NCBI RefSeq assembly: GCF_000963885.1
Contig: NZ_BALE01000019.1
Location: 1 to 64,000, forward strand
Origin: Tanticharoenia sakaeratensis NBRC 103193
GTDB lineage: Bacteria; Pseudomonadota; Alphaproteobacteria; Acetobacterales; Acetobacteraceae
Length of the DNA: 64,000 bases
Direction of reading: 5' to 3'
Below the pieces are notes generated by a model, which was not told the origin of the DNA, did not search any database, and saw nothing but the letters and a program-made list of their open reading frames with translations. The position numbers and the translations under genes are program-made. Shown in pieces: positions 3,485 to 30,983 of the stretch (within the stretch, counting starts at the first letter, position 1; each line of letters starts with the position of its first letter).

Positions 3485-3490
3485 CGTTTC

Positions 3491-5844: not shown

Positions 5845-5928
5845 TTCGGATGCTCCACATTCATTACGTCTGCCGTATGGGCGCAGGATGCGATAAGTTC
5901 GCCTTTCCAACAACCGCAGAGAGTGGCC

Positions 5929-6309: not shown

Positions 6310-6339
6310 GCCGCGCCTGACATCACCTGCCCGGCGGCT

Positions 6340-9711: not shown

Positions 9712-9712
9712 G

Positions 9713-10702
9713 TCAGCCTCCCGTCGCCGGTTGCGGGTTGATCGTGCCGTTCGAAAGGCCGGACCAGATCTGCGCAAAACGATCAGCCGCCGCGGCTGTC
9801 ACGAGAGCAGGATTGACCGTGCCGCCACGCCATTTCATGGCCCAAAGCTGATCGAGACGCGGCGCCCATATGCCGCCGCCCGGAAAGGCGCGCGCCTGCG
9901 TCAGACGAACAATCTCTTCGACCATCCAGGGAATATTGATGACCGTACTGGAGGCGACGGCCTTCGGCGCCACCATCCACTGATCGGTGTAGCAGCCGAT
10001 GGCGCGCACGCCCGCTTCCTCAGCGCCACGAAGCGCACCCAGTCCCGTGACGTCCGCCGCATGCCAGATCACGCCGGCACCATGGCCGATCATGGTCGAC
10101 GCCGCTTCCCGCCCCAGGCTCGCATTGTTGAAATCCCCCGGAACGATGCCCATCGCGTTGATCCCCGGAACGGTCGCGCGCGCACCGTCCTCGAAACGAT
10201 ACATCATGCGTCTCTGGGACGGGTTATCCTGGCCGCCGACAAATCCGACGCCGCGCCCCGCAGGAGCAATCAGCGCGGCCAGCGCACCGGCGGCGTAGGA
10301 CAGGGCATAATAATTCATATCGACGAATGCGACATTTTTTGGAATCGTATCATCAGGCGCGAAAGCCGTCACGAAAAAGGACTGATCGGGATAATCCGGA
10401 CCGATTTCCTGAAATGTCGCGGTAAACTCGAAACCGTGGCCGATCACCAGATCATAGCCGTCCTCGGCATACCCCCGGGACATGGCCATGACATCGGCCT
10501 GCGCTACGTTTTCGGCATAACCGGTGACGCAGCCTGCGCGGCTCACCTGCTGCAATCCCATATAGGCAAGCTGGTTCCAGCCGCCGTCGCCGATCGTCCC
10601 GTTCATGATCAGCGCGACGCGAAACGGCCGTGTCGCCCGGGCGAAACCGGGGATGGCAGCGAGTGCCAGCGTCGCGAATGTCCGTCGGCCGATCAGGGGC
10701 AC
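9713..10702 (-). CDS. BMP-family substrate-binding lipoprotein-like protein of an ABC importer
   Basis: This is a periplasmic binding protein of the BMP/PnrA family, about 329 aa. The family start motif appears as VALIMNGTIGDGGWNQLAYMG, followed by YDLVIGHGFEF and GRGVGFVGGQDNPSQRRMMYRFEDGA. An N-terminal Tat-like signal (IGRRTFATLALAAIPGFARA) begins at GTG 10702. A TTG at 10720 is an alternative start overlapping the upstream amidohydrolase stop; neither has a strong ribosome binding site. No lipobox Cys is visible, unlike many Gram-positive homologues. BMP proteins bind nucleosides or purines, which agrees with the deaminases upstream in the same operon. Confidence 0.85.
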   Translation of the reverse strand: MPLIGRRTFATLALAAIPGFARATRPFRVALIMNGTIGDGGWNQLAYMGLQQVSRAGCVTGYAENVAQADVMAMSRGYAEDGYDLVIGHGFEFTATFQEIGPDYPDQSFFVTAFAPDDTIPKNVAFVDMNYYALSYAAGALAALIAPAGRGVGFVGGQDNPSQRRMMYRFEDGARATVPGINAMGIVPGDFNNASLGREAASTMIGHGAGVIWHAADVTGLGALRGAEEAGVRAIGCYTDQWMVAPKAVASSTVINIPWMVEEIVRLTQARAFPGGGIWAPRLDQLWAMKWRGGTVNPALVTAAAADRFAQIWSGLSNGTINPQPATGG

Positions 10703-10712
10703 GCGCGTAGGC

Positions 10713-12218
10713 TCATGCAAGCGGCGCTGTGCGACGGACGTCGAACGCATCGTCCAGCGTGTCCGTCTGCGCGCGCTGATACATCGCCTTGACCCACGGC
10801 GCGCTGACGGCGGCATGACGCGACAGCTCGGGGCAGATGACACGCTTGTACCATCTCGCCATATCGACGATTTCGGCGCGGATCGCGTCTTCATCGATCG
10901 TCGTCAGCCTGCGCTCTTCCATGACCACCCGGCCGCGAATGATCGAGGTGCGCACCACGTCTTCGCCCGCGCTGAACGCAAGGTGCCGGATCGGGTCGTA
11001 CATGGGGATCATTCCCCATTCGTTGCGATCGAGGAGGATGATATCGGCGGATTTTCCGACCTCAAGGGAGGCGACCTCGTCCTGCATCAGGCTCGAGCGC
11101 GCTGCGGCGTGGGTTGCCATGTGCAGCACTTCGTGCGCGCTGACCCATTGTTCGTAATCCGGCGTGCCGATCTTGTGAATCAATGAGGCCAGCCGGAATG
11201 CCTGCAGAAGATTCGCCGTATCGGCCGATGCCACCCCATCGCAGCCGAGCGCCACGTTGACACCCGCACGCAGAAGCTTGCGCACAGGCGAGACGCCCGA
11301 TCCCAGCTTGAGATTGGCCAACGGGTTGTGGGTAATCGAGCAGCGCGCCTGACCCATCATCGCGATATCGGCATCCGTCAGCCAGATCGCATGGTTCATC
11401 GTCAGCCGATGCGTCATGCATCCGGTCTCACGCAGCCAGGAGGGCAGGGTCATGCCGTATTTGCGCTGACCGGTGACGGCCTGCGTGCGCGTTTCCAGCA
11501 CATGGCAATGAATGGGCGTATCGTCTCGTTCCGAGATTTCGGCCACATGACGCAGGAGCTTTTCCGAACAGCGCTGCGGTCCGCTCGGTCCCAGGATGAT
11601 GCGGATCCCGTCGCGCCCGTGCCACATCGCGCGCAGTTCTTCATGCAGTTCGATCTGCGCTTCGGTGGCGGTGCCGTCCTGCGCGGCAATGCGCGCACGG
11701 ACCTCGGCCGGCAGGATCTCGTCCATGTAGGGCAGACTTGCAACGTAATCCTCGTCCCACATCGACGTCGTGATCCAGCCGCGCAGACCGAGGTCCCGAT
11801 AGGCCTGTGCCGCCTGATCGACCGCCGTCGGCTTGAAATGCAGGTCGATCAGGTCGTCCTGCAGGGACGTGACGCCGGATCGGATCGACACGATGCCGAC
11901 CAGCATCGCGCGCAGGTAATGCAGCCGGGGCGGCAGATCAGGCAGATAGAAAAGCGGGTAGACCTCATTCAGCCAGAGTTCGAGGGGCTGGTTATCGTAC
12001 CGCCCCATTTCGAACGCCTCGTTCGAATGCATGTGAGCATCGATCAGACCCGGCATGACGATGCGGTTCTGGGCATCAATCACCCGCGCGCCCGGCGGGA
12101 CGGGCAGATCGACACCCACATCCGCGATCCGGTCGCCGTCGATCAGGACGTCTCCCCGCTCCAGAACGCGTCCGGCGATATCATTGACGATGACATGACC
12201 GCCCTTGATCATGATCAT
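10713..12218 (-). CDS. TRZ/ATZ-type amidohydrolase (predicted nucleobase deaminase, SsnA/MtaD-like)
   Basis: This is a 501-aa metal-dependent hydrolase of the amidohydrolase superfamily. Visible metal-site elements are PGLIDAHMHSNEA (HxH), IHCHVLETR, a later MTHRLTMNHAIW and the ALGCDGVASADT Asp, in the order seen in 5'-methylthioadenosine/SAH deaminases and atrazine-type hydrolases. The C-terminal KSADIILLDRNEWGM strand completes the composite beta-sandwich. The start overlaps the upstream deaminase stop in ATGA. It acts in the cytoplasm and presumably deaminates or dechlorinates an aminated N-heterocycle brought in by the downstream BMP transporter. The exact substrate is not inferable. Confidence 0.83.
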   Translation of the reverse strand: MIMIKGGHVIVNDIAGRVLERGDVLIDGDRIADVGVDLPVPPGARVIDAQNRIVMPGLIDAHMHSNEAFEMGRYDNQPLELWLNEVYPLFYLPDLPPRLHYLRAMLVGIVSIRSGVTSLQDDLIDLHFKPTAVDQAAQAYRDLGLRGWITTSMWDEDYVASLPYMDEILPAEVRARIAAQDGTATEAQIELHEELRAMWHGRDGIRIILGPSGPQRCSEKLLRHVAEISERDDTPIHCHVLETRTQAVTGQRKYGMTLPSWLRETGCMTHRLTMNHAIWLTDADIAMMGQARCSITHNPLANLKLGSGVSPVRKLLRAGVNVALGCDGVASADTANLLQAFRLASLIHKIGTPDYEQWVSAHEVLHMATHAAARSSLMQDEVASLEVGKSADIILLDRNEWGMIPMYDPIRHLAFSAGEDVVRTSIIRGRVVMEERRLTTIDEDAIRAEIVDMARWYKRVICPELSRHAAVSAPWVKAMYQRAQTDTLDDAFDVRRTAPLA

Positions 12219-12703
12219 GACGCGTCGCCCCAGAATTCAGCCTGCAGCAGTGCCGCTTCGTCCGACAGCATCGGGCCGACGACCTCGACCATCTGCTGGC
12301 CCGCCGCGAACACGGTGCGGCAGGGAAGATCTAGCGTGGGATTTTCCGGATGCGCGCCGGTAGCGGCCTTCAGATCGGCTTCGGACTGCCCGTACACCAC
12401 CCGGCCGATTCCGGACCAGTAGATCGCGCCCGCACACATCGCACAGGGTTCGGCCGAGCTGTAGAGCGTCGTGTTCCGAAGACGCGCGCTGCCGTATGTC
12501 CGGCTGGCACGACTGGCCAGCAGACGTTCGGCATGGGCCGTCATGTCGTGGCCCTCGGCCGAAAAGCCGTTGCCCTGCTCCATCAGCACCGTCCCGTCCG
12601 CATCGACCAGGATCGAGCCGAACGGATGGTCTCCGCCTTCGCGCGCGCGACGGGCCACTGCAAAGGCCTGTCGCAGGAAGAAGGCATCATCGAGCCCGCT
12701 CAT
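12215..12703 (-). CDS. Cytidine-deaminase-fold nucleobase/nucleoside deaminase (GuaD/TadA-like)
   Basis: This is a zinc deaminase of 162 aa with the complete site: HAE (DMTAHAERLL, near residue 57) and PCxxC (SSAEPCAMCAGAIYWSGI, near residue 88). Length and motifs fit the bacterial guanine deaminase (GuaD) and TadA-like cluster rather than true cytidine deaminases, and GDHPFGSILVD is a typical early strand. It overlaps both neighbours by 4 nt (ATGA), so it is tightly coupled to the FAD oxidase and the amidohydrolase. A guanine-deaminase-type role would duplicate the amidohydrolase-type guanine deaminase at 14899-16245, so the true substrate is likely different. Confidence 0.85.
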   Translation of the reverse strand: MSGLDDAFFLRQAFAVARRAREGGDHPFGSILVDADGTVLMEQGNGFSAEGHDMTAHAERLLASRASRTYGSARLRNTTLYSSAEPCAMCAGAIYWSGIGRVVYGQSEADLKAATGAHPENPTLDLPCRTVFAAGQQMVEVVGPMLSDEAALLQAEFWGDAS

Positions 12704-14049
12704 GACAGAAGCCCCGCGCTGAGCATCTTGCCCGGATTCATCAGCCCCAACGGATCATAACGACGTTTTTCGGCCGCAAGGTCGGGCGAGGCAACGCGAT
12801 GCATGCCCCCCTCCTCGATTGTCCAGACATGCGGATTGGCGATGAGCACGCCACGCGATTCATGTTCCGCGATGATGTCGTTCAGGCGCGCCTCGTCGCT
12901 GAAGCGCACGACAGGCAGAGCGGCGCAGGAAATCCCTCCCGCCATGACCATGAATTCCAGATGCATCATCACCTCGTCGCCGAACAGCGTGGCAATTTCC
13001 GCGACCTTGTCCAGTGTCCCGTCCGGCGGATATCCGCTTTGAAGATAAGTGTATCCCCGGTCCTTTTTCAGAACCTGCAAGGTCGTGTGGTTCCAGGTCA
13101 GCTCGTAGAGCGGCGTCTGGCCGGGCGTGTTCTCAGCTTCGAGCGTATCGGCCTCGTGAAACACCACGCCGCCCGCAGCCGTTGCCAGCTCCCGCGTCGT
13201 CTCGACGCCCGATGGCGCGATCATGAGCAATACGAGGGCCGCCCCGGCCGGCCCCTTGTCACGAAGGCTGCCGAAAAACGGCAGGAGCTTCTCGTCCATG
13301 ACCGATACGAGCTTTTTCTGAACGCCCGCCTGCATCGCAATGTCGCGTCCGAATGCCGCTGCCTGCGCGAAATCGGGAAAGGCTACGGCCATGTCCTGCC
13401 ATGCGACGGCCGGCTCGACCGTGATCTCGACTTCGGACATGAGACCCGTCGTGCCGTACGTATGCAGGATCGAGCGCACGGCCGGCCCACGGACCTCGAC
13501 CGCTTCGGGCATGTCACCGGCACCAACGACGCGCCCCGCCAAGACATTGCCCGGCGTTGCAAGGCCGCCCCATCGCACCGACCCGATGCCGCCCGAGCCG
13601 CCGCAGAGAAAGCCGCCGATCGTCGCGGTGCGCTTGGTCGATGGATACATGCGCAGTTCCCATCCCTGCGCCCGCAATGCCCGGTCGAGTTCCAGCATGT
13701 TCATGCCGGCCTGCACCCGGGCGATCCCGTCCCGCACCCACAACAGATGCGATAGCCCCGTCATGTCGACGATGGCGCCACCTTCCAGCGGCACCGCCTG
13801 ACCATAATTGCCCGTCCCGCCACCCCGGGGGGTCAGACTGGTTCCGGTTGCGCGCGCCGCCTCGACGATTGCGATCAGATCCGCCTCGTCGCGCGGCAGG
13901 ACGACGATTTCACCGAACCGGTCGTCGAGCTGACGCTTCAGGACCGGGCTATACCAGTAGAAGTCACGGCTTTTCCGCTTCACGAGCGCGGGTTCGGTCT
14001 GGACGGGGATGTCGCCGAGCTGCGCTGCGAAGGCGTCCACGCCGCTCAC
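12700..14049 (-). CDS. FAD-linked oxidase (PCMH/GlcD-type)
   Basis: This is an FAD-binding oxidoreductase of 449 aa with a PCMH-type flavin domain. It has the early VVLPRDEADLIAIVEAAR strand, the diphosphate loop PRGGGTGNYGQAVPL near residue 83, and IGGFLCGGSGGIGSVRWGG. The substrate-domain C-terminus ends in DPLGLMNPGKM, as in glycolate/lactate-type oxidases. The start is GTG 14049, overlapping the creatininase stop in GTGA. No covalent-flavin His-Ser motif is seen at the usual loop, so it is unlike cytokinin oxidase. A paralogue sits at 39431-40846, also beside an amidohydrolase. Substrate unknown; oxidation of an N-heterocycle or its amine side chain is inferred from context. Confidence 0.8.
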   Translation of the reverse strand: MSGVDAFAAQLGDIPVQTEPALVKRKSRDFYWYSPVLKRQLDDRFGEIVVLPRDEADLIAIVEAARATGTSLTPRGGGTGNYGQAVPLEGGAIVDMTGLSHLLWVRDGIARVQAGMNMLELDRALRAQGWELRMYPSTKRTATIGGFLCGGSGGIGSVRWGGLATPGNVLAGRVVGAGDMPEAVEVRGPAVRSILHTYGTTGLMSEVEITVEPAVAWQDMAVAFPDFAQAAAFGRDIAMQAGVQKKLVSVMDEKLLPFFGSLRDKGPAGAALVLLMIAPSGVETTRELATAAGGVVFHEADTLEAENTPGQTPLYELTWNHTTLQVLKKDRGYTYLQSGYPPDGTLDKVAEIATLFGDEVMMHLEFMVMAGGISCAALPVVRFSDEARLNDIIAEHESRGVLIANPHVWTIEEGGMHRVASPDLAAEKRRYDPLGLMNPGKMLSAGLLS

Positions 14050-14882
14050 AGCCCGAGCGCTCCATGCGCCGGCACGATACGGTCCAGCGGATAGGCTGCG
14101 ATTTCCTCCAGCAGTTCGAGAAAGCCTGCAACCCACTGGTCCGCCACCGCGCGCCCTTTCTCGGCAGTGGCGATGCTGGCGTCGCCGGCTGCACCCGATG
14201 CGTGCAGATCCTGCGCGAGCCAGCCGAAACCCACCCGTCCCTCTGCTTCAAGCCAGCGCGCGCTTTGCGCAAGTTCCGCAGGCCACGGCGCGAAGTTTCC
14301 AGCGCGCTCCATCTCGACCAGATCGGGACGGAAATGCAGCATCAGCGACGTCTCGATATCGCCGCCATGGATACCGAAGCGCCGCTCCGCGTCGGTGAAC
14401 AGGCCGTCAGGCACGCCGAAACGCGACCAGCCGACGCAGACGACGAACATGTCGTGCGTGCGACGCAGTGTGCGCGCCACGATATCGAGAATCTGCGGCT
14501 GCCCGCCATGGGAATTGAGCAGGACGAGCCTGCGCACGCCCGCGCGTGCGACGCATTCGCCGATTTCGATCAGAACGCGCGTCAGGGTCTCGGCACTGAG
14601 CGTCAGGGTGCCGGGATAGGCGATATGTTCCTCGCTCTTGCCGACCGACTGAATCGGCAGGGCCGTGGCCGGAACGCTGTCGGGCAGCAGATCGAGCGCG
14701 CGATCCAGAAGATGCTCGTTCAGGCAGGCATCGACATAGACCGGCAGATGCGGCCCATGCTGCTCGATCGCGGCCACCGGCAGGATCGCGACCGTCTCGG
14801 ACGGAAGGGCACGGAACTGCCGCGAGATCATGTCGCACCAACGCTTCTTCGGCCAGAATACCTCTTTGCGCACGTCACTCAT
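14046..14882 (-). CDS. Creatininase-family metal-dependent amidohydrolase
   Basis: This is a 278-aa member of the creatininase superfamily, which opens lactam rings or removes formyl groups (creatininase, ArfB-type formamidopyrimidine deformylase, MftE). Metal ligands are recognisable in AIEQHGPHLPVYVD (Glu, His, Asp) near residue 40, LLNSHGGQPQ near residue 123 and the IHGGDIETS Glu near 170. Length is typical (about 250 aa plus). It follows guanine deaminase by 16 nt and overlaps the FAD oxidase by 4 nt. In a purine operon, a deformylase or ring-opening hydrolase is more plausible than true creatininase, but this is inference. Confidence 0.85.
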   Translation of the reverse strand: MSDVRKEVFWPKKRWCDMISRQFRALPSETVAILPVAAIEQHGPHLPVYVDACLNEHLLDRALDLLPDSVPATALPIQSVGKSEEHIAYPGTLTLSAETLTRVLIEIGECVARAGVRRLVLLNSHGGQPQILDIVARTLRRTHDMFVVCVGWSRFGVPDGLFTDAERRFGIHGGDIETSLMLHFRPDLVEMERAGNFAPWPAELAQSARWLEAEGRVGFGWLAQDLHASGAAGDASIATAEKGRAVADQWVAGFLELLEEIAAYPLDRIVPAHGALGL

Positions 14883-14898
14883 CGACAGATCACCTTTT

Positions 14899-16245
14899 TC
14901 ACTCGTCAGATTTCAGCTTGATGGCGCGGCCATCGACCCACACCCGGACGATCGTCTCGCGGCCGGCGTGACAGACGATTTTCTGAACCAGCGTCGCGGC
15001 CGTGTCATCGTCCTGCAATCGAAGATGTCCCCGGCGGCCCGCGATGGCCACGGCATCGAACATCATGCCGGGTCGCAAGGCACCGGCGGAGACGCCCAGC
15101 GCCTCCGCCCCGCCGCGCGTCGCCAGATAGAATGCCTCGAGAAAATCGACGCGCGCACCGGCGACACCCCCGCGCAGCGCAGGCGGCTTGCCGGCATCGA
15201 CGCCGCTTTCCCGCAGACGGCTGGACGTCACGGCCTGCCGGGCGTTCTCGAAAATCGACGGCGTGTAGCCACCCGCGATATCGGTGCCGAGGCCGCAGCG
15301 CACGCCTTCATCGAGGATCTCGCGGAGGGGCAGCACGGAATTTGCGAAATAGGCATTGGAAATTGGACAATGGGCGACGGCCGCGTCCCGTGCCCGGATC
15401 CGGTCGCGGTCGTCCCGATCGATGAAATTCGCATGCGCAAGGACCGTGTGCGGTCGCAGAAGGCCGAACCGGTCCAGTGCCTCGCTATCGGTGCAGCCAA
15501 GGCGCTCGATGACATGCTGATGCGCCCAGTCGCTTTCGGACGCATGCGTCTGCACCCGCACGCCTGTCTCGCGCGCCAGCGCGCCAAGGCCTTCCAGCAG
15601 CGCGTCCGAACAGGCAGGAATGAAGCGTGGCGTGATCACGGGCTGGACCAGGCCACGGTCGTTACCCGGCAAGGCCCGGACGGCAGCGATGAAGCGCCGC
15701 GTCGCATCGAGCGCTTCCCGGGCACTCGCGTGACGATAATCCGGAGGACAGAGGCCCGGATCGTCCATCGCGACCAGCCCGACAAAGCCCCGCTGTCCGT
15801 GCGCCAGACAGGCCCGCGCCAGCTCCAGACTGGCCTCTTCATGAATGGTCGAAAAATACAGAGCGCTCGTGGTGCCGCAGGCCAGCAGGGACAGCACGAG
15901 GTCAGCATATACCGCCTTTGCAAACGCAGGGTCGGCATAGCGCGCCTCGAGTGGAAAAGTGTAGGCGCCGAGCCAGTCTTCCAGCGGCCTGTCCAGCGCC
16001 TGACCGGCCTGTGGCCATTGCGGCGCATGAATGTGCAGGTCCGAAAGCCCTGCGATCAGCACATGATCGGGTGGAAGCACGATGGCATCGTCACGCAGGC
16101 GGAGCGCGTCGAACGCGTCCGTGCCGTCCGGCGCGCGTTCGACGATAACGCCTTCTGCATCGATCCGGAGTGCCGCGACCTCTGCCGTCGCCTCGCGGAG
16201 TGCGAGCGTGTCCAGCAACCGTCCGCAGACGACGAATTCGCTCAT
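14899..16245 (-). CDS. guaD: Guanine deaminase (amidohydrolase type)
   Basis: This enzyme converts guanine to xanthine and ammonia using one zinc ion. The 448-aa length is typical. Motifs in order: LSDLHIHAPQWPQ (HxH, with the PQ that follows in guanine deaminases), PLEDWLGAYTFPLE, YFSTIHEEAS, VQTHASESDWAHQHVIE, VLAHANFIDRDD, HCPISNAYFAN and GLGTDIAGGYTPS (metal Asp). The start ATG 16245 overlaps the stop of the Rieske-less oxygenase subunit in ATGA, so the two are co-translated. A longer frame from 16284 would run into that gene. This is the most firmly assigned enzyme of the leftward operon and anchors its purine theme. Confidence 0.92.
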   Translation of the reverse strand: MSEFVVCGRLLDTLALREATAEVAALRIDAEGVIVERAPDGTDAFDALRLRDDAIVLPPDHVLIAGLSDLHIHAPQWPQAGQALDRPLEDWLGAYTFPLEARYADPAFAKAVYADLVLSLLACGTTSALYFSTIHEEASLELARACLAHGQRGFVGLVAMDDPGLCPPDYRHASAREALDATRRFIAAVRALPGNDRGLVQPVITPRFIPACSDALLEGLGALARETGVRVQTHASESDWAHQHVIERLGCTDSEALDRFGLLRPHTVLAHANFIDRDDRDRIRARDAAVAHCPISNAYFANSVLPLREILDEGVRCGLGTDIAGGYTPSIFENARQAVTSSRLRESGVDAGKPPALRGGVAGARVDFLEAFYLATRGGAEALGVSAGALRPGMMFDAVAIAGRRGHLRLQDDDTAATLVQKIVCHAGRETIVRVWVDGRAIKLKSDE

Positions 16246-17096
16246 GCGGCGGCCCCGTATCGTACACCCCGTGCCTTGAGCCACCGGCGATAGGCGACGG
16301 ACGATCGGTCCGCGAGCGTTGGAATTTCCGTCGAGGCATCGAGTGGCATCAGACGGGGCCGCTGGTTTTCGAGAACGATCCGGTCCTGAAGGAAGATCAG
16401 TTGCTGGAACTGCACGAGCCCGTCCTGTGCCGACGCCGCATCGACCAGAAACATCACCGGATGCGCGCGACAGACGGTCTGTGTCATTGGCTGGACGAAC
16501 AGGGCAATCACATCCTGCCGGCCGGGTGCGGCGGGACAGGTCTTGTACAGGAGCGTCGAGAAGGGGTTCGCGACGCGATACGTGTAGTCGGTCATGATCC
16601 CGCCCGATGCGGAAAGCGCGGCCTGCGGCTGGAAGAAGGTGCAGTCGACTGCCCAGATCTCGGCGCCGTCGTCACGCGTTTCGATGCGGTATCGGGCCAC
16701 CTCCGTCTGCGGCTCCGCACCCAGAACATCGGTGTGGATGAATGGGAAATGCGCAAGATCGAGGAAGTTTTCGACGATCCGCAGGCCGGAGGTGCGAACG
16801 GCGATCGATCCGCAGCAGACAAGCCTGCGATCCGGCTCTTCCGCTTCGGGAATGACCGCGATATCGCGCACCGGGTCGGCAAGTGCTGTCCAGAGATACC
16901 CGTATTGCGCGCGAGCCGGTAGGACAGTGCCGTTCGTCCTGACGGACCAGCCGTCGCCGACCGCGGCATATGAGACGTCCCGACCGAGCAACATGGTCGT
17001 CTGCGGCAGCGTATCGACGTCCGCCAGGCAGGCGAGCGGATACCATTGCGCGAGCGTCTCGGTCTCGATCATTTCCTCTTGCGCGGCATTGCACAT
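16242..17096 (-). CDS. Rieske-type oxygenase catalytic subunit lacking the Rieske cluster segment (NdmC-like)
   Basis: This 284-aa protein has the mononuclear iron site of Rieske oxygenases: ENFLDLAHFPFIH, with Asp113, His116 and His121. Its first 75 residues keep the outer scaffold of a Rieske domain (QWYPLACLADVDTLP, LLGRDV, YGYLWTALADP). The roughly 70-residue insert carrying CxH and CxxH is absent, and no such motif exists anywhere in the chain. The start ATG 17096 has GGAGA 10 nt upstream; Met9 is an alternative. The gene heads the leftward operon and overlaps guanine deaminase by 4 nt. The missing Rieske module is encoded divergently at 17483-18103. NdmC of the caffeine pathway (an N7-demethylase needing NdmD and NdmE) is the closest known design. 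A purine N-demethylase or hydroxylase is inferred. Confidence 0.85.
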   Translation of the reverse strand: MCNAAQEEMIETETLAQWYPLACLADVDTLPQTTMLLGRDVSYAAVGDGWSVRTNGTVLPARAQYGYLWTALADPVRDIAVIPEAEEPDRRLVCCGSIAVRTSGLRIVENFLDLAHFPFIHTDVLGAEPQTEVARYRIETRDDGAEIWAVDCTFFQPQAALSASGGIMTDYTYRVANPFSTLLYKTCPAAPGRQDVIALFVQPMTQTVCRAHPVMFLVDAASAQDGLVQFQQLIFLQDRIVLENQRPRLMPLDASTEIPTLADRSSVAYRRWLKARGVRYGAAA

Positions 17097-17103
17097 CGGT
17101 CGA

Positions 17104-17117
17104 GGTTCTCCGGAACC
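17104..17117. promoter_or_regulatory. Inverted repeat GGTTC-tccg-GAACC in the divergent promoter region
   Basis: A 5-bp perfect inverted repeat with a 4-bp spacer lies just upstream of the oxygenase catalytic subunit and overlaps its ribosome binding site at 17107-17111. The divergent intergenic region of about 88 bp must contain promoters for both big operons, so this is a candidate operator or translational control hairpin. The regulator is unknown and the arms are short. Confidence 0.35.
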
Positions 17118-17184
17118 GTTTCCGCAGCGGCACTGCTGTGGGACCGAGACACTAAACCGCATGGCCGACGCGGCAAGAGGCAAA

Positions 17185-17469
17185 ATGTTCGCATCCGATA
17201 ACGACCCGTTCCCGGATGCGCATTCCCGCCGGTATCGCATTCGCGGGCGGTTCGATTGCGCGCTCTTCGCCGCGTTCACGCGCCAGCGTGCCGCACTGCT
17301 GGCGCTTCGGATCGTTTCGCTCCGGACCGCTCCCGGACTGGTGGAGGCGCTCGTCGCGGGCGAACCTGCGCTTCTCGGCATGTTCGAGATGGCGTGCGCA
17401 CTGGGACCGGGTAATTGTATCGTGGACGACATGACGAGCGAGGCTTGCGAATCCGACCGATGCCTGTGA
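17185..17469 (+). CDS. Degenerate acylphosphatase-like small protein
   Basis: This is a 94-aa protein from ATG 17185, which has AGAGG about 4 nt upstream; ATG 17161 would give 102 aa with no visible ribosome binding site. The pattern YRIRGRFDCALFAAFTRQRA, then TAPGLVEALVAGEP, FEMACALGPGNCIVDD matches the acylphosphatase fold in spacing (strand-helix-strand, GxVE...G, GP near the end). The catalytic Arg of the GVxFR loop is replaced by Ala, and the conserved Asn before GxVE by Arg, so acylphosphatase activity is unlikely. It opens the rightward operon, immediately before the free Rieske protein, and may be an assembly or interaction subunit of the split oxygenase. Fold assignment is by eye and tentative. 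Confidence 0.55.
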   Translation: MFASDNDPFPDAHSRRYRIRGRFDCALFAAFTRQRAALLALRIVSLRTAPGLVEALVAGEPALLGMFEMACALGPGNCIVDDMTSEACESDRCL

Positions 17470-17482
17470 CGCTGTGGCCGAC

Positions 17483-18103
17483 ATGACGATGTGGCATCCC
17501 GTGGCGCTGGGCGCCGACATCCCCGCCGGCACCGTGGCTCCCGTCCGGCTGCACGGCGACGAAGTCGTGCTCTGGCGCGACGAGGCAGGCATTCTCCATG
17601 CCTGGGAAGACCGCTGTCCGCATCGCGGCATGCGGCTGAGTTTCGGGTTCGTGCGGAAGGGGCGCCTCGCCTGCCTCTATCACGGCTGGCAGTTCGACGG
17701 CGAAGGGCGCTGCCGCCATATTCCAGCGCACCCCGATCTCTCGCCGCCCGGAACGATCCGCGCCCGGACATGGCGGGCGGACGAGGCACACGGTTTTGTC
17801 TGGCTCGCCCACGACGGGTCGGAATCCCTGCCTGCGATGAAGGATGGGGCGTTCACGGCCGCCCGGAGCATTGCAATCGAGAGCGCGCGAGGGACGGTCG
17901 CAGCGGCCCTGGGCATCGGTCAGGATCCGGTGCTGTCTCGAGATGGCCTGATCTGCGCGGTTCATGCAGCCGATGGCGAAACGACCATGCTGCATGTCGC
18001 CGTAGCCAACCCCGCCGATGCAGCGGATGCGGCTCTCTGGGCGCAACGTACGCGCGATTCGATCGAGCGTGGGGAAGCGGTGGCATGGGAGTTGCACCTT
18101 TGA
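17483..18103 (+). CDS. Free-standing Rieske [2Fe-2S] protein, partner of the split oxygenase
   Basis: This 206-aa protein has an intact Rieske site: Cys45-x-His47 in DRCPHRGM and Cys64-xx-His67 in CLYHGW. The rest of the domain (MWHPVALGADIPAG, VVLWRDEAGILHAW, GFVWLAHDG) is the oxygenase-type Rieske fold, not a high-potential cytochrome or ferredoxin-only type. After residue 115 there is a 90-residue tail with no NxxDxxH iron motif, so the catalytic domain is missing. It complements the Rieske-less subunit encoded divergently. I chose ATG 17483; GTG 17474 is possible, and the ribosome binding site is weak for both. No reductase domain is fused, unlike NdmD. It is followed after 11 nt by the GST-like gene. 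Confidence 0.85.
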   Translation: MTMWHPVALGADIPAGTVAPVRLHGDEVVLWRDEAGILHAWEDRCPHRGMRLSFGFVRKGRLACLYHGWQFDGEGRCRHIPAHPDLSPPGTIRARTWRADEAHGFVWLAHDGSESLPAMKDGAFTAARSIAIESARGTVAAALGIGQDPVLSRDGLICAVHAADGETTMLHVAVANPADAADAALWAQRTRDSIERGEAVAWELHL

Positions 18104-18114
18104 GCCATGCTGAC

Positions 18115-18660
18115 ATGATACTTCACGATTGGGCGCTGGACGATCGCTGCTACGCCGTGCGCCTCGGCGCGGCCCTGATGGGACGTCGGCTGACGATCCA
18201 TACAACCTCCGAGGCTGCGGTACAGGGCCCTGTTCTGACCGGGACAGACGGGACGCATCGCGGGCCTCTGGCAATCCTCGATTTCCTGGCACGGGACACG
18301 CCATGGCGTGTCCCGACCACATCGCCCTGGGTCACCCGCGCGGACGAGATGCTGGTGACGTTTTCCGATCTGCGCCGGAACGCGCTGCTGGCATCCATGC
18401 CGCAGACGCCCAATCCGCCGGCCTGTCGCCGTCTGCTGCGCATGATCGAGGACCAGTTGAGCGCACAGCGCCATGCGGGCAGCGACTGGATTGCAGGCCC
18501 GGACGCCTCTATCGTCGACATCGCCCTGTTCCCGGTCGCGGCACTGAGCCATGACCTGGAAGTTCCGCACGACCTGTTCCCCGAACTGCGTCGTTTCATC
18601 CGCAGCTTTCGCGCGCTGCCCGGCTTCATCACGATGCCCGGCATTCCGGAGTATCACTGA
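18115..18660 (+). CDS. GST-like protein (NdmE-like)
   Basis: This 181-aa protein resembles the glutathione S-transferase superfamily. The N-terminal strand-helix MILHDWALDDRCYAVRLGAALMG and GPLAILDFLARD correspond to the thioredoxin-like half. The C-terminal helical half includes SDWIAGPDASIVDIALFPVAAL and FRALPGFITMPGIPEY, the usual GST N-capping region and tail. The thioredoxin half is short, and a classical catalytic Ser/Cys/Tyr near residue 10 is not obvious. In the NdmCDE demethylase, NdmE is a GST homologue required structurally to bring NdmC and NdmD together; the same role is inferred here. It precedes the second BMP binding protein by 2 nt. Confidence 0.78.
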   Translation: MILHDWALDDRCYAVRLGAALMGRRLTIHTTSEAAVQGPVLTGTDGTHRGPLAILDFLARDTPWRVPTTSPWVTRADEMLVTFSDLRRNALLASMPQTPNPPACRRLLRMIEDQLSAQRHAGSDWIAGPDASIVDIALFPVAALSHDLEVPHDLFPELRRFIRSFRALPGFITMPGIPEYH

Positions 18661-18662
18661 GC

Positions 18663-19745
18663 GTGACCGCCCTTCTGACCCGACGCGCCACACTTCTTGG
18701 CGCTGGAGGCCTTGCTGCCCTGCGACCGGCGGCCGCATCCGCACTGCGACCGATCCGCGAGCAGGACGCACTGATCGCATTCGGCCATACCGGTCCGGTG
18801 ACCGATGGCGGCTGGACCCATCAGCATGACCTGGGCGTGGAGGCCGTGCGTGCGGCCTTTCCGCGGCTCAAGACCATCTTCGTCGAGAGCATTCCTTATT
18901 CGGCCGATGCGACCCGCATCTTCCGCCAGTTCGTGGCCGAAGGCGCGCAGATGGTGATGGCCACGTCGAATTATGGCGATTTCATCCGCGATGTCGCCGA
19001 CCGCGCGCCTGAGGTCGCCTTCATGGAATGCGACGGGCGCAACGTGAGCGGCAATCTCGGCTGGTATTACATCACTCACTGGTACGCGAGCTACATCATC
19101 GGCATCGCGGCAGGGCTCCTGAGCAAGAGCGGTCGGCTCGGCTATGTCGCATCCTTTCCGATCAGCTCGGTCTATGCGGGCGCGAATGCGACATTGCTCG
19201 GCGCGCAATCGGTCAACCCGAACGCCACCATGCAGGTCATTTCGATCAACGCATGGTTCGACCCGCAGGGCGCCAATCAAGCAGGAGCCGCGCTGGTCGA
19301 CAGCGGCTGCGACTTCCTGTGCGGCATCATGGACGAACCGGCCTATCTGCGCGTCGCTCAGGAGCGCCATGTCTGGGCCGCAATGTGGAACACCGACATG
19401 CGGCGTTTCGGACCCGATGCCTATGTCAGCTCGGTCACGCTCGATTTCGCACCGTATTACGTGCAGCAGATCGGCGACCGCCTGCGTGGAACATGGCGGC
19501 CCGATGCGCACTTCCTGACGCTGGGCCACGGCGTGGACCGCGACGCCTGGGGGCGGAACGTACCGGAGTCGGTCCGGATGCAGGCCGATGCCGCGCGCAC
19601 GAAGATGCTGGCAGGGTGGTCGCCCTTCGTCGGTCCGATCCACGATGCCTCCGGACGGATGCGGGTCGCCCCCGGCCAGACCATGGACGACATGGCGCTC
19701 TACAGCTGGGACTGGCCGTTGCGCGGAGTATCCGGTCTTGCTTGA
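18663..19745 (+). CDS. BMP-family substrate-binding protein (second transporter)
   Basis: This is a 360-aa periplasmic binding protein starting at GTG 18663, with a twin-arginine-like signal (LTRRATLLGAGGLAAL). The BMP motif appears as IAFGHTGPVTDGGWTHQHDLGVEAV, followed by GAQMVMATSNYGDF, the GRLGYVASFPISSVY strand and INAWFDPQGANQAG. It differs clearly from the BMP protein at 9713-10702, so the two importers probably have different ligands. The stop overlaps the TTG start proposed for the ATPase. It feeds the permeases at 21321-23320. Confidence 0.88.
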   Translation: MTALLTRRATLLGAGGLAALRPAAASALRPIREQDALIAFGHTGPVTDGGWTHQHDLGVEAVRAAFPRLKTIFVESIPYSADATRIFRQFVAEGAQMVMATSNYGDFIRDVADRAPEVAFMECDGRNVSGNLGWYYITHWYASYIIGIAAGLLSKSGRLGYVASFPISSVYAGANATLLGAQSVNPNATMQVISINAWFDPQGANQAGAALVDSGCDFLCGIMDEPAYLRVAQERHVWAAMWNTDMRRFGPDAYVSSVTLDFAPYYVQQIGDRLRGTWRPDAHFLTLGHGVDRDAWGRNVPESVRMQADAARTKMLAGWSPFVGPIHDASGRMRVAPGQTMDDMALYSWDWPLRGVSGLA

Positions 19746-21324
19746 GACACCGCCCGATCCCGCGACGCGTCCGGCAGGCCTCGCACCGGGTGTGCCCGCA
19801 CTCCTCGGCTTGCGCGGGATTGCGAAATACTTCCCGGGCGTCATCGCCAACGAAGACGTGTCGCTCGACGTCTATGCCGGCGAGATCCACGCGCTTCTCG
19901 GCGAGAACGGGGCCGGCAAGTCGACCTTGATGAACGTCGTGACCGGGCTATACCAGCCGGATGCGGGCGAACTGATCCTCGATGGCTACGGCGTGCAGTT
20001 CGCAGGCCCCGATGCGGCGATCGCGGCCGGGATCGGCATGGTGCACCAGCATTTCAAGCTCGTGTCGCGCTTCACGGTCGCCGAAAACCTGCATCTGGGC
20101 TGGGGCGAAACGCCGCGACGCCTGTCGCCGCGCGCGCTCGAAGCCCGGGCCGATGCCCTGTCCGCGCAGTTCGGCCTGCCGATCCGCAGCAATGCGACGG
20201 TCGAGACGCTTTCGGCGGGCGAGCAGCAGCGCGTCGAGATCCTGCGCGTGCTGTCGCGCGGCGCCAGGCTGCTGATCCTCGACGAGCCGACAGCGGTGCT
20301 GAGTCCGGTCGAGGTCGCCGAACTGTTCCGCGCACTCCGGCGTTTCCGCGACGAAGGCGGGGCCGTCATCATCATCAGTCACAAGCTCGACGAGATCATG
20401 TCGCTGTCGGACCGGATCTCCGTGCTGCGACATGGCCGTCTCGTCGGCACCCATCGCACGGCCGAGACCACGATCCCGGATCTCGTCACCGAAATGATCG
20501 GCCGCCCCGCAACGCTCGACGAATCCTATCCGCGCAGCGTTCCACGTGACATGGCCGCTGCAACACCCATGGTGCTGCACGGCGTTTCGGCCCGGGACGA
20601 CCGCGATGTCATTCGCCTGCATCCGCTCGATCTGGAGTTGCGCGCAGGCGAGGTGCTGGGCGTCGCGGGTGTCACCGGCAACGGCCAGCCGGAGCTCGGC
20701 GAGCTTCTGACCGGGCTGCGCGCGCCGTCCGGCGGCATGATCACGCTGAACGGGCGCGACGTGACCGGCGCATCCGCCCGCGTTTTTTCCCATAACGGCG
20801 TCGGCCATGTGCCGGAGGATCGCCTGCGCCATGCGCTCGCCCCATCGCTGTCCGTCGCGGACAACGCGGTGCTGCGCGAATACGATCGTCCGCCCGTTGG
20901 CGGTGGCGGCCGGTTCTCTGCCACACAGGCGGCGGATTTCGCCCGGACGCTTGCCGAACGCGCGCGTGTCATGCTGCCCGGCGTGCATGTCGCGATCCGG
21001 GCCCTGTCCGGCGGCAATCAACAGCGGCTTGTACTGGAGCGCGAAATCCGCATCGCATCTGCGGTTCTGGTGGCCAGCTATCCGAGCCGCGGGCTCGATA
21101 TCGGCGCGATCGCCGCCATGCGCGCGATGCTGGCGCAGGCACGGGACCGGGGCGTCGCCGTCGTGCTGATGTCGGAGGACCTCGATGAAATTTTCGCCCT
21201 GTCGGACCGAATCGCCGTGCTGTGCGCAGGCAGGCTCATGGCCGTGATCGACCGCAGCGAAGCTGACCGCGACCGGATCGGCGCCCTGATGAGCGGGCGC
21301 ACGGAAGGGAGTGTCGCGGCATGA
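19738..21324 (+). CDS. BMP-type ABC transporter ATPase with two nucleotide-binding domains (second transporter)
   Basis: This is a duplicated ABC ATPase of up to 528 aa. Domain 1 has Walker A GENGAGKSTLM, LSAGEQQRVEIL and LLILDEPTAVLSPVE. Domain 2 has the usual degenerate loop GVTGNGQPE, LSGGNQQRLVLERE and SYPSRGLDIGA. The N-terminal boundary is uncertain: TTG 19738 overlaps the BMP gene stop, and GTG 19792 would remove a Pro-rich tail preceding GLRGIAKYFPG. It overlaps the permease start by 4 nt (ATGA). Confidence 0.92.
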   Translation: MLETPPDPATRPAGLAPGVPALLGLRGIAKYFPGVIANEDVSLDVYAGEIHALLGENGAGKSTLMNVVTGLYQPDAGELILDGYGVQFAGPDAAIAAGIGMVHQHFKLVSRFTVAENLHLGWGETPRRLSPRALEARADALSAQFGLPIRSNATVETLSAGEQQRVEILRVLSRGARLLILDEPTAVLSPVEVAELFRALRRFRDEGGAVIIISHKLDEIMSLSDRISVLRHGRLVGTHRTAETTIPDLVTEMIGRPATLDESYPRSVPRDMAAATPMVLHGVSARDDRDVIRLHPLDLELRAGEVLGVAGVTGNGQPELGELLTGLRAPSGGMITLNGRDVTGASARVFSHNGVGHVPEDRLRHALAPSLSVADNAVLREYDRPPVGGGGRFSATQAADFARTLAERARVMLPGVHVAIRALSGGNQQRLVLEREIRIASAVLVASYPSRGLDIGAIAAMRAMLAQARDRGVAVVLMSEDLDEIFALSDRIAVLCAGRLMAVIDRSEADRDRIGALMSGRTEGSVAA

Positions 21325-22385
21325 GCGTGCACATGACCCGCCTGTCCATCGTGCCCGCGCGCCGTGTTGCGATCGGGCGGGCACTCGGCCTGCTGGTCGC
21401 GGTCATGATCGTCGGGATCACGCTGGCCGCGATGGGGCGACCGCCGCTCGAACTCCTGACGCTGATTCTGCGCTCGACGGTCGGCTCCCGCTTCGGGATC
21501 GAGGATCTGGCGCTGTTCATGACGCCGCTGATGCTGACCGGGGCTGCCGTCTGGGTGGGTGTGCGCGTGGGCTTGTGGAACATCGGCGCGGAAGGGCAGT
21601 TCTATGCTGGCGCAGTTGCGGCCTCCGCGATCGGGCTGTTCGGCACGATGCCTGCGATCGTCGAAATTCCCCTGATGGCCGTGGGCGGCATTCTGGCCGG
21701 GATGGTCTGGATCGCGCTTCCGGCGGCGGCGCGCGCCTGGCTCGGGGTCAGCGAGATCGTGACCACGCTGCTGCTGAACTTCGTGGCCAGCCTCATTGTG
21801 TTCTATCTGGCAACCGGGCCGTGGGCCGACCACGTCACCGGCGCCCTTGCCTCCACCGAGCGTCTGCGCGTGGGCCTGCCGGAAGTCTGGGGCGCCGTGC
21901 ATATCGGCTTCTTCCTGAGCCTGCTGGCCGTGATCGCACTGGCCGCGTTTCTCTCGCGCAGCCGGTTCGGATACGAATCGGCCGTCGTCGGTGCCAATCC
22001 TGAAGCCGCGCGCTATGCGGGCATGGCGGTCTCCCGCAACGTGCTGATCGTGCTCCTGCTGTCGGGTGGCCTGGCAGGCCTTGCCGGCATGATCGAGGTC
22101 AGCGGCACGGTGCATCGGCTTCAGGGTGGTCTTGCCAATAATTACGGCTATCTCGGCATCGTGGTCGCGATCCTTGCGCGCCGCAGCTGTCTGGCGCTGA
22201 TCCCGGCAGCCCTGCTGATGGGCTTCATCCTCGATACCGGGATCGTCCTGCAGACGGCGCAGATCAGCGCCTCCGCCGTGCTCGCGATTACCGGCCTCGT
22301 GATGATGGCCATCGCCGTGGGTGACGAACTGTCGGCCTATGCGCGGCCTGCGATCCAGCCCAAGACTTCGGGACAGACATCATGA
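21321..22385 (+). CDS. BMP-type ABC transporter permease, first subunit (second transporter)
   Basis: This is a 354-aa permease of the nucleoside/purine importer class, with the signature VGLWNIGAEGQFYAGAVAA near residue 93 and the coupling region VVGANPEAARYAGM around residue 225. About nine hydrophobic segments are present. The start is fixed by the ATGA overlap with the ATPase, and the stop overlaps the next permease in the same way. Confidence 0.9.
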   Translation: MSVHMTRLSIVPARRVAIGRALGLLVAVMIVGITLAAMGRPPLELLTLILRSTVGSRFGIEDLALFMTPLMLTGAAVWVGVRVGLWNIGAEGQFYAGAVAASAIGLFGTMPAIVEIPLMAVGGILAGMVWIALPAAARAWLGVSEIVTTLLLNFVASLIVFYLATGPWADHVTGALASTERLRVGLPEVWGAVHIGFFLSLLAVIALAAFLSRSRFGYESAVVGANPEAARYAGMAVSRNVLIVLLLSGGLAGLAGMIEVSGTVHRLQGGLANNYGYLGIVVAILARRSCLALIPAALLMGFILDTGIVLQTAQISASAVLAITGLVMMAIAVGDELSAYARPAIQPKTSGQTS

Positions 22386-23320
22386 TGGCGCTGCTGAGCG
22401 GGCTTCTGAGCCATGCCGTCCTCTCCGGCGGCGTGCTGGCGCTCGCGGCGCTGGGCGAGGTCATTGCCGAGCGCGCAGGCGTGGTCGACCTCGGCGTCGA
22501 GGGCCTGATGTCGGTCGGTGCGGTGATTGCCGTGCTGATGGTCAATGTCGTGCCCGATCCATGGGTCGGGCTGCTGGCGGCGATGGTGGCGGGTGGCTTT
22601 GGCGCATACCTCTTCTCGCTGGCGGCCGTCGTGCTGCGCGCCAACCAGGTGCTGTGCGGCGTTGCGACCACGTTTCTCGGCATCGGCCTCAGCGCCGTCA
22701 TGGGTCGCTCGGTCGCGGGCATGCCGGTGCCCGCGATCTTTCAGCCGATCGCGATCCCGGGATTGTCCCGCCTGCCTCTGATCGGCCCTGCCTTTTTCGC
22801 GCAGAACCTGCTGGTCTATCTGATCTTCGCGATACTCCCGGTGCTGGCACATGTCTGGCTGTTCCGCACGCGCATGGGCCTCGACCTGCGCGCGGTCGGC
22901 GAAAACCCGGCCGCGGCCGATGCGGTCGGCATCCGGGTCACGCGCCTGCGGGTTCTGGCGGTCGTGGCCGGTGGCGTTCTGGCGGGTGCCGCAGGTGCCG
23001 ACCTGACGCTGGCGGTCGTGCCGGTATGGTCGGACGGCATGGTTTCGGGTCGTGGATGGATCGCCGTCGCCCTCGTGATTTTCGCAGGCTACCGACCGGG
23101 CATTGCCGTGCTGTCGGGGCTTCTGTTCGGCCTTGTGACCGCTATCGGCTTCATGGGGCAGGCGCGCGGCTGGCCGGTAGCCCCCGCGATGCTCAACACG
23201 CTGCCCTATCTCGGCACGATCCTGTGCATCATCGTTCCGGTCGTGGCCTTGCCCCGCCTGCGCCGCGCCATGGCGGCCCCCGCTTCCCTCGGCATGCCCT
23301 ATCACCGCAGCGCCCGCTGA
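22382..23320 (+). CDS. BMP-type ABC transporter permease, second subunit (second transporter)
   Basis: This is a 312-aa permease with ERAGVVDLGVEGLMSVGAVIA near residue 30, corresponding to the family EGxM motif, and the coupling region RAVGENPAAADAVGIRV. It forms the membrane pair with the preceding gene. The nucleoside hydrolase begins 30 nt later, so imported ligands probably come from the same periplasmic pool that enzyme acts on. Confidence 0.9.
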   Translation: MMALLSGLLSHAVLSGGVLALAALGEVIAERAGVVDLGVEGLMSVGAVIAVLMVNVVPDPWVGLLAAMVAGGFGAYLFSLAAVVLRANQVLCGVATTFLGIGLSAVMGRSVAGMPVPAIFQPIAIPGLSRLPLIGPAFFAQNLLVYLIFAILPVLAHVWLFRTRMGLDLRAVGENPAAADAVGIRVTRLRVLAVVAGGVLAGAAGADLTLAVVPVWSDGMVSGRGWIAVALVIFAGYRPGIAVLSGLLFGLVTAIGFMGQARGWPVAPAMLNTLPYLGTILCIIVPVVALPRLRRAMAAPASLGMPYHRSAR

Positions 23321-23350: not shown

Positions 23351-24460
23351 ATGGCCCTTCCCGCCTTCTCCCGCCTGCAGCGCTCAGTTCTCGGACTGGC
23401 GGCGGCCCTCGCTTTCGGCGCCTCCGCCCACGCGGCCGAGCCCCGTCTGGTCATCCTCGACGATGACGGTTTCGCGCTGGCCCAGTGGATGGTGCTCAAG
23501 GCGCCGGGCGTGAAGGTGCTGGGCGTTGCGACCGTCAGCGGCGATCTGTGGCAGAAGGAGGCGACAGCCCATGCGCTGCGCGGCGTCGAGATCGCAAATC
23601 GCACGGATGTGCCGGTTCTGGCGGGCGCGACCTATCCCCTGCTCAACTCCGAGAAGCTGACCGACCGCTGGGAAGGTCTGTACGGGAAGCTGACCTGGCG
23701 CGGCGCGTGGATGCGCCAGTGGGTGGAGCCGACGACGCAGCCGCTGCCACCCTATCACGGTCCGGACGTCGTGCCCGACCTGCCGGAGGGCAATCCGCAC
23801 ATCAGGCCGTCGTCCGAGCGGGCTGCGGACTTCATGATCCGCATGGTGCATCAGTATCCGGGCCAGGTCAGCATCATCGAGACCGGCCCCATGACCAACC
23901 TCGCCCTGGCCCAGCGGCTCGACCCGGAGTTTGCGGGCCTTGCGAAGGAGCTGGTCTACATGGGCGGCAGCCTCGGCCCGCGCCGCAAGCTGACCAGCGA
24001 GGCCTCGGCGCAGTTCGCACGCGAATTCGTCAATTCGCCGCGTCGCGAGTTCAACATCCGTTTCGATCCCGAAGCGGCGAGCATCGTGATGCGGGCACCG
24101 TGGCGCAGGATCGTCATGGTACCGGCCGATCCGGCAACGGAAACCGAAATGAATGCCGATCTTGTCCACCGCCTGAGCACTGCCGATACACCGATCGCGC
24201 ACAATCTGCGCGGCAAGGCAACGAATTTCCCGCTCTGGGACGAGATGACGGCGGCGATCTGGCTCGATCCGAGCCTGATCAAGACGAGCGCCAGTCTCTA
24301 TATCGACGTGAACACGCAGTTCAGCGCGGGTTATGGCGACATCCTGTCCTGGACGCCCGGCTATCAGCCCGATCTGGACGAGCAGCGCGAACAGGTCGTC
24401 ATGACGGTGGACGTGCCGCGACTGGAAGCGCTCATGGTCAAGCTGGTCGCAACCAAGTGA
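23351..24460 (+). CDS. Secreted nucleoside hydrolase-like protein with altered active-site motif
   Basis: This is a 369-aa member of the inosine-uridine nucleoside hydrolase family, which cleaves the N-glycosidic bond of nucleosides. An N-terminal Sec signal peptide (LGLAAALAFGASAHAAEP) implies a periplasmic location. Family elements are VKVLGVATVSGD, VPVLAGATYPL, GQVSIIETGPMTNLALAQRL, LVYMGGSLG and NIRFDPEAASIVMRAPW. The calcium-binding motif DxDxxxDD is shortened to LDDDGFALA, and the usual TVxGN is TVSGD. Activity or specificity may therefore differ from the textbook enzyme. It is the eighth gene of the rightward operon and overlaps the GH32 gene by GTGA. Confidence 0.82.
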   Translation: MALPAFSRLQRSVLGLAAALAFGASAHAAEPRLVILDDDGFALAQWMVLKAPGVKVLGVATVSGDLWQKEATAHALRGVEIANRTDVPVLAGATYPLLNSEKLTDRWEGLYGKLTWRGAWMRQWVEPTTQPLPPYHGPDVVPDLPEGNPHIRPSSERAADFMIRMVHQYPGQVSIIETGPMTNLALAQRLDPEFAGLAKELVYMGGSLGPRRKLTSEASAQFAREFVNSPRREFNIRFDPEAASIVMRAPWRRIVMVPADPATETEMNADLVHRLSTADTPIAHNLRGKATNFPLWDEMTAAIWLDPSLIKTSASLYIDVNTQFSAGYGDILSWTPGYQPDLDEQREQVVMTVDVPRLEALMVKLVATK

Positions 24461-27434: not shown

Positions 27435-27439
27435 GATGG

Positions 27440-30885: not shown

Positions 30886-30983
30886 GGGACGAAAGCTCCG
30901 GTGGTGATGCGGGAGACGCAACACTACGCCTGACACCGCACGAAAGCCGAGGGTCCCGATCCGCACAAAGCATCAAATTGCGC

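Follow-up and report, generated by a model that had tools for sequence, protein, structure and literature searches.

The first 64,000 nucleotides of contig NZ_BALE01000019.1 of Tanticharoenia sakaeratensis NBRC 103193 (Acetobacteraceae; RefSeq assembly GCF_000963885.1), hereafter the window, contain three genes that very probably encode together one complementing Rieske oxygenase: a catalytic subunit without Rieske cluster (CAT, 16242..17096, minus strand), a free Rieske subunit whose catalytic domain, at about residues 115-202, has shrunk (RSK, 17474..18103, plus strand), and a glutathione S-transferase (GST)-like, NdmE-like subunit of 181 residues (18115..18660, plus strand). The divergent intergenic region between CAT and RSK (17097..17473) gave no sigma-70-like or terminator-like match by consensus and no Rfam match. 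A two-component complementing oxygenase had been proposed in a preliminary description of this DNA, and is supported here by the co-inheritance of the genes, the fixed GST partnership, the reciprocal structures of the two halves, and the end-to-end match of RSK with the N-terminal stretch of an NdmD-like protein.

CAT, of 284 amino acids (aa) from the start at 17096, with an inner ATG at 17072 as the other candidate, matched VanA_C (PF19112, 70.9 bits) and gave no match to the Rieske family PF00355 in the same family-library scan. Its iron motif of the NFxDxxH...H type, E109-H121 (16734-16772, minus strand), includes D113, H116 and H121, which, together with D238 (16383-16385, minus strand, within a QDxxxLEN stretch), are all invariant in 56 aligned rows. 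D238, missed by the preliminary description, is the likely third iron ligand that would complete a two-histidine-one-carboxylate site, the role which we take over from the VanA-type oxygenases. By regular expression, the iron motif was found in 102 of 102 CAT rows and the CxH...CxxH motif in none of them, and thus both the domain scan and the motif counts bear out a D113/H116/H121 site unaccompanied by CxH/CxxH. The predicted model of CAT (mean predicted local distance difference test, pLDDT, 89.9) was superimposed by its residues 7-283 on the chain 1-334 of the complete oxygenase SxtT (Z 31.2, root mean square deviation, rmsd, 2.1, 271 residues); in this model, CAT retains the Rieske scaffold minus the cluster-binding part.

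RSK is the reverse case. Its length is 209 aa from a GTG start and 206 from an inner ATG, and its ligands C48, H50, C67 and H70 in the longer numbering (C45, H47, C64 and H67 in the preliminary description) are invariant in 62 aligned rows. The family-library scan gave PF00355 at residues 7-88 (85.5 bits) and, for RSK, no catalytic-family match nor any other besides Rieske. The Rieske motif occurred in 84 of 84 RSK rows and the strict catalytic pattern in 0 of 84 by regular expression, one of these rows, L058 (341 aa), being a complete oxygenase by its sequence. The previously described Rieske ligands without an iron motif are therefore found again by both the scan and the motif counts. The predicted model (pLDDT 94.4) aligns by residues 1-201 with residues 3-288 of GxtA (Z 20.4, rmsd 2.5), and what RSK keeps beyond its Rieske domain is, as modelled, a reduced catalytic domain that lacks the iron motif, after which the 209-aa chain stops, so that the module is indeed free and unfused. 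In the three-component oxygenases, a small Rieske ferredoxin (~100 aa) serves an alpha subunit owning its own Rieske cluster. RSK has about 90 extra residues aligning with the catalytic domain, and CAT has no cluster motif; a plain Rieske ferredoxin was rejected, since RSK exceeds the length of one and has the shape of an oxygenase subunit. The single-chain alpha subunit, with both centres in one chain, does not describe the pair either, CAT being without PF00355 and RSK without a catalytic match.

The GST-like protein, assigned by GST_C_2, alignment and synteny, is recognisable but weak (27.1 bits at a cut-off of 24.9). A deletion in its N-terminal half takes out the NPxGxxP segment in the alignment; the segment is missing in the GSTs of the window's clade and in 30 of 85 GST rows overall, a count in which some rows are of uncertain start or cut at an end. 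This loss fits a structural rather than a glutathione-using role.

The family profiles of RSK and CAT match each other (E 2.3e-6, probability 89) by their N-terminal parts, with an alignment gap at about RSK residues 43-95 that takes in all four cluster ligands. The gap supports the earlier claim that the cluster segment of CAT was lost rather than never present. The models of CAT and RSK each align with complete oxygenases over nearly the entire length, and the two look like reciprocal degenerations of one kind of chain.

The inheritance of the pair was followed in samples of 249 family, 385 class and 339 phylum genomes, all three including the window's genome. In the family, 17 genomes have CAT (at least 244 bits, against 92 for the next match), and these 17 are also the ones with RSK; both were present in the same 8 class genomes and, complete oxygenases set aside, in the same 13 phylum genomes. 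Co-occurrence of the pair in other genomes, suggested as a check in the preliminary description, was thus seen at all three ranks. The family count of RSK comes from the 18 best rows, equal to 17 genomes, the last of which (94.2 bits) is separated by frame and coverage, not by score, from the first one dropped (G173, 94.0 bits, residues 10-112 of a 446-aa frame). RSK-profile matches to the Rieske domain of long frames were dropped in the class (G595, G561, G472 and G000 C79) and phylum samples (G850, G950, G713, G816, G925, G659, G788 and G000 C79), the phylum count of CAT omits six complete oxygenases (G659, G713, G816, G850, G865 and G950), and the CAT frame of G944 is short (230 aa). Since the samples share the window's genome, the genomes are akin and the candidates scored in each were capped in number, no probability is given for the co-occurrence.

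The genes also keep together at their loci. RSK lies near CAT in 16 of 16 family loci from other genomes (15 of 20 kb and one of 11.7 kb), and GST in 15 of them, the exception being L059, where RSK is less than 870 bases from the contig end. From a collection of species genomes the best 80 of 568 loci were used, and within their fetched flanks RSK was found in 64 and GST in 68. GST stands downstream of RSK on the same strand in all 71 loci with both (of 96, the 16 family loci and the 80), immediately after it in 51 and after an intervening CAT in 20; the described position of the GST-like gene next after RSK in the window holds as well. At some loci RSK-GST faces CAT and no purine gene was seen in the part fetched (ten neighbour frames of L065 and L085 were scanned), which makes the trio a unit of its own. 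Short genes annotated as acylphosphatase were observed near the trio in three genera (L042 6912-7190, L043 6969-7220, L143 16153-16458), and the Rhizobium one had no NCBIfam match at E 1e-8.

Both CAT and RSK are homologous to complete oxygenases and each misses a half, as unrelated remnants of broken complete oxygenases would; but the ligands are invariant in the 56 and 62 aligned rows and the pair occurs in the same genomes in three samples, so that chance is implausible, and chance or decayed remnants were rejected on conservation and co-inheritance. The complete oxygenase of the window (27440-28486), from which such remnants might be explained, is a distant gene with 27% identity to CAT, and the remnant origin has next to no likelihood. 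The seven further Rieske-domain matches in the genome would allow RSK to serve mainly a different oxygenase, with CAT being fed by another Rieske protein. This is very improbable: in the three samples full-length RSK was found in CAT-bearing genomes only, and the start of CAT lies at most 30 bases from the stop of RSK in 17 of the 71 RSK and GST loci, with plus-strand cases counted and minus-strand cases left uncounted.

Intact relatives of the split enzyme were found in six genomes of the family f190 from another class of the same phylum (L158-L163), whose complete oxygenases lead the complete matches of the CAT profile in the phylum sample; those of five of the genomes were matched, as complete chains, by the RSK profile too. 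These loci hold BMP-type importers (6/6) and an amidohydrolase matching the GuaD query (5/6), with no GST-like gene matched in the six stretches of 16 kb; they differ from the window in having both centres in one chain and in this lack of GST. Such intact single-chain relatives in similar purine-transport loci are new here. In the window's genome, the complete oxygenase L004 is the best match for both CAT and RSK among the seven Rieske loci compared. In the tree rooted on the six f190 oxygenases, built by a quick method, with long root branches flagged by the program and the base unresolved, the Rieske-less CATs all fall on one side (support 100), and a clade of 59 rows with the free form only (support 90) includes the window CAT; the root of an earlier tree with far outgroups was worthless. 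The free form of the Rieske part was found in 7 of 8 genomes of the class sample, with one fused, and in 7 of 13 of the phylum sample, with five fused (G685 being scored by frame length alone, 596 aa, and the other four looked at) and one ambiguous (G935). Five changes between the free and the fused form are needed on the tree, and either form may have come first.

The nearest characterised architecture is NdmCDE, the 7-methylxanthine N7-demethylase of Pseudomonas putida CBB5, compared here by description. Literature searches on split Rieske oxygenases and on their GST and purine links yielded reviews and a genome survey dealing with NdmCDE. According to PMC4408171, NdmC is a Rieske-less oxygenase acting as N7-demethylase, NdmD is a reductase with an extra Rieske, NdmE is a GST-like structural subunit, and 18 further organisms carry homologous NdmCDE clusters; a 3:3:3 complex of 360 kDa is given in PMC10380055. 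A Rieske-less catalytic subunit, a detached Rieske domain and a GST-like partner are common to both systems, whereas in the window the Rieske subunit is not fused to an FNR-type reductase, RSK ending at 209 aa, and the full-length VanB-like match lies on another contig. The part of the 588-residue NdmD-like protein of S. meliloti that corresponds to RSK is residues 6-242 (E 6.6e-39), the remainder being the reductase, and this end-to-end homology places the trio in a kind already known. The NdmCDE-like cluster on pSymA of S. meliloti has two catalytic subunits, one Rieske donor and one GST, and that on a Klebsiella plasmid one of each; in both, unlike the window, the Rieske part is a 585-588-aa reductase fusion. 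The structures of SxtT/GxtA, NdmA and NdmB share the fold of both halves, yet belong to single-chain enzymes holding both centres. HpxD, a complete Rieske oxygenase with the reductase HpxE, has 28-30% identity to CAT over the catalytic part, while CAT is without the Rieske domain, and the pair is not of the HpxDE type. Thus, the arrangement is the same three NdmCDE parts cut differently, a Rieske-less oxygenase with GST and detached Rieske being known before.

Ordinary Rieske oxygenases are trimers, in which the electron leaves the Rieske cluster of one subunit for the iron of the next, so that a chain can do with a single centre. For NdmA, PMC10380055 gives a cluster-to-iron distance of 12.1 A between neighbouring subunits versus 44.7 A inside one, and a cluster-less chain beside an iron-less chain can therefore work. 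Beyond the anatomy, the reciprocal loss, the co-inheritance and the homology to NdmC-, NdmD- and NdmE-type proteins, which are observed, we infer for the trio a physical complex with its electron path, reductase, substrate and reaction. In this scheme, RSK would carry the cluster and an inert shrunken catalytic domain, and CAT the iron, the substrate pocket and the cluster-less scaffold; a VanB-type reductase encoded elsewhere would reduce RSK, RSK would pass the electron over the subunit interface to the iron of CAT, and the assembly would be held together by the GST-like subunit. A guanine-class or N-methylated purine would enter through the BMP-type importer, linked to the deaminases of the two operons. 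A VanB query of the genome found one full-length relative (37% identity, on another contig) and one partial match. The gene order RSK-CAT-GST-VanB-type reductase in Paracoccus alcaliphilus and G944 points to such a reductase as the likely electron donor.

Several observations weigh against the complementing oxygenase of this scheme. There is no reductase at the window locus, the VanB query giving no match in a 38-kb excerpt of the window, and a VanB match is also absent from the loci L039-L139. Two plasmid loci (L039 and L041) hold CAT with no RSK within the fetched stretch, and the absences from genomes are not strict, 12 candidates per genome at most having been scored for RSK in the family and 6-8 in the class and phylum. 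The purine neighbours are frequent but not universal: the link to guanine deaminase drawn in the preliminary description stands as a common one, a deaminase-like neighbour being present in 63 of the 80 loci, and fails as a general one, with 7 of the 16 family loci, while BMP importers occur in 56 of the 80 and 14 of the 16, respectively. No formaldehyde-handling gene was among the ten neighbour proteins scanned, and no search for one by name was made.

One RSK may serve more than one catalytic subunit. Sixteen of the 80 loci, selected for the lack of RSK in their flanks and hence non-random, were traced into their genomes, each of which proved to have a single RSK (E no higher than 1e-22) and just two CAT-type genes (E no higher than 1e-40); one RSK with two catalytic subunits in 16 of 16 genomes of this selected set is new here. 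Both CAT genes are on the RSK contig in 14 of them, and one CAT is on a different contig in G255 and G260. The two-to-one ratio of catalytic to Rieske subunits occurs in many Rhizobiales-type genomes and, in fused form, on pSymA of S. meliloti; it is not general, since in the class sample it is limited to G587, against two CAT and two RSK in G548 and a single pair in the rest. The simplest reading suggests that RSK is an electron-transfer module common to two catalytic subunits.

The second type of catalytic subunit (CAT2) accounts for 19 of the 80 loci and forms its own clade in two trees, which included 14 and 10 of the 19. It is surrounded by a LysR regulator, two subunits of a thiamine pyrophosphate (TPP)-dependent decarboxylase, a GMC oxidase and a deaminase, to which mostly a xanthine-dehydrogenase-like enzyme and an aldehyde dehydrogenase, and in some loci an adenine deaminase, are added. 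The conserved cluster was delimited in L121 (Roseibium marinum) at 2814-14065, with relatives in L100, L101, L104, L109, L112, L123, L130 and L134; its TPP subunits are sulfopyruvate-decarboxylase-like, and the xanthine-dehydrogenase-like protein is a fusion. The gene content of the cluster suggests the breakdown of an adenine-type compound, and a literature search found no description of a cluster of the CAT2 type. From the oxidases, decarboxylase subunits and deaminases listed, CAT2 might attack the side chain of an adenine-type compound, e.g., a cytokinin, as might the window CAT. This is, however, a guess from gene content and an improbable one: the window CAT is of the other type, the oxidases of the CAT2 loci were not seen beside it, and a literature search for a link of Rieske enzymes with cytokinins found nothing of the kind. 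An RNA scan of 23 further loci gave one xanthine riboswitch (RF03054 in L121 at 14811-14860, 39.5 bits at a cut-off of 36, about 6 kb from CAT2), one group II intron and one tRNA, with no xanthine riboswitch at the gathering score in the other 22.

In the window, the two halves of the complementing oxygenase head two purine-linked runs, as had been described, with a guanine deaminase-like gene after CAT and a BMP-type importer after RSK-GST. The minus-strand run behind CAT comprises the guanine deaminase-like amidohydrolase (14899..16284; TIGR02967, 346.1 bits, under its cut-off of 375.4), which may share as many as 43 bases with the CAT end, provided that its GTG start is correct, a creatininase-family protein (14046..14882; PF02633, 234 bits), a FAD-binding, GlcD-like oxidase of uncertain true start (12700..14136; PF01565, 89 bits), a CDA-fold deaminase (12215..12703; PF00383, 77.7 bits), and an amidohydrolase of the nucleobase-deaminase type (10713..12218; PF01979, 164.6 bits). 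The run is continued by a putative second ATP-binding cassette (ABC) importer (6340..10894), assigned from the open reading frames and the appearance of their sequences, with permeases at 6340-7224 and 7221-8291, an ATPase at 8221-9777 and a substrate-binding protein at 9713-10894, their starts being uncertain. On the plus strand, RSK-GST is followed by the BMP-type ABC importer (18663..23320; PF02608, 92.6 bits, and PF00005, 165.4 bits), consisting of a substrate-binding protein (18663-19745), an ATPase (19588-21324, start uncertain) and permeases in open frames (21321-22385 and 22382-23320), and by a nucleoside hydrolase (23351..24460; PF01156, 174.5 bits), probably exported by its leader-like N-terminus, as judged by eye. 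A GH32 gene of invertase/levanase-like type (24463-25887), which is off the purine theme, lies directly after the latter. Further on, the complete Rieske oxygenase of the minus strand (27440-28486) stands between amidohydrolases of the nucleobase-deaminase type (26010-27749 and 28499-29941), accompanied by an NMT1-type substrate-binding protein (29884-30966); similar gene sets downstream of xanthine riboswitches are described in PMC7373994. A riboswitch scan of the window, intended to name the ligand, found none at the gathering score. Elsewhere in the genome, there are a strong match to a molybdenum hydroxylase of the xanthine-dehydrogenase type (PF20256, 336 bits) and an OHCU decarboxylase, which make purine breakdown past xanthine plausible.

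Judged by the deaminases, BMP-type importers and nucleoside hydrolase, the substrate is probably a purine of the guanine class or an N-methylated one. For the complementing oxygenase, the reaction tentatively favoured by homology to NdmC is the N-demethylation of 7-methylguanine, 7-methylxanthine or another guanine-class purine, with somewhat less than an even chance. The same split enzyme might instead hydroxylate guanine or xanthine at C8 in the manner of HpxD, the distant relative (28-30%) annotated as a molybdenum-independent xanthine hydroxylase. The trio-associated amidohydrolase of Paracoccus passes the NCBIfam cut-off for 8-oxoguanine deaminase (669 versus 532 bits), which is also the best match, yet below the cut-off (367), of the Rhizobium amidohydrolase (two amidohydrolases were scanned), and amidohydrolases with y1 (28499-29941) as their best window reference, a group that includes the Rhizobium one, were counted in 32 of the 80 and 6 of the 16 loci. 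However, C8 hydroxylation is rather unlikely, as NdmC is an N7-demethylase (PMC4408171), and the molybdenum hydroxylase of the genome may make a second xanthine oxidiser needless.

The weight of the finding is lowered by the NdmCDE precedent and raised by the reciprocal degeneration, the intact relatives and the two-to-one ratio. NdmCDE, known from caffeine breakdown, is thereby placed in a wider family often tied to purine uptake. For its history, we give an even chance to a single-chain purine-linked oxygenase having split into two reciprocally degenerate subunits and recruited a GST, with RSK freed as a shared module, so that two catalytic subunits, differing in specificity and belonging to separate purine pathways, would be served by one RSK-GST pair, while the module fused to a reductase would have given the NdmD form, or would have arisen from it by undoing of the fusion. 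The intact, split and fused forms are offered for studying the division of labour in an enzyme of identical subunits, and, as the two centres sit on separate chains and can be altered one at a time, the between-subunit electron transfer becomes testable by genetics and reconstitution. If RSK serves several catalytic subunits, it would be a natural plug-in system for biocatalysis.

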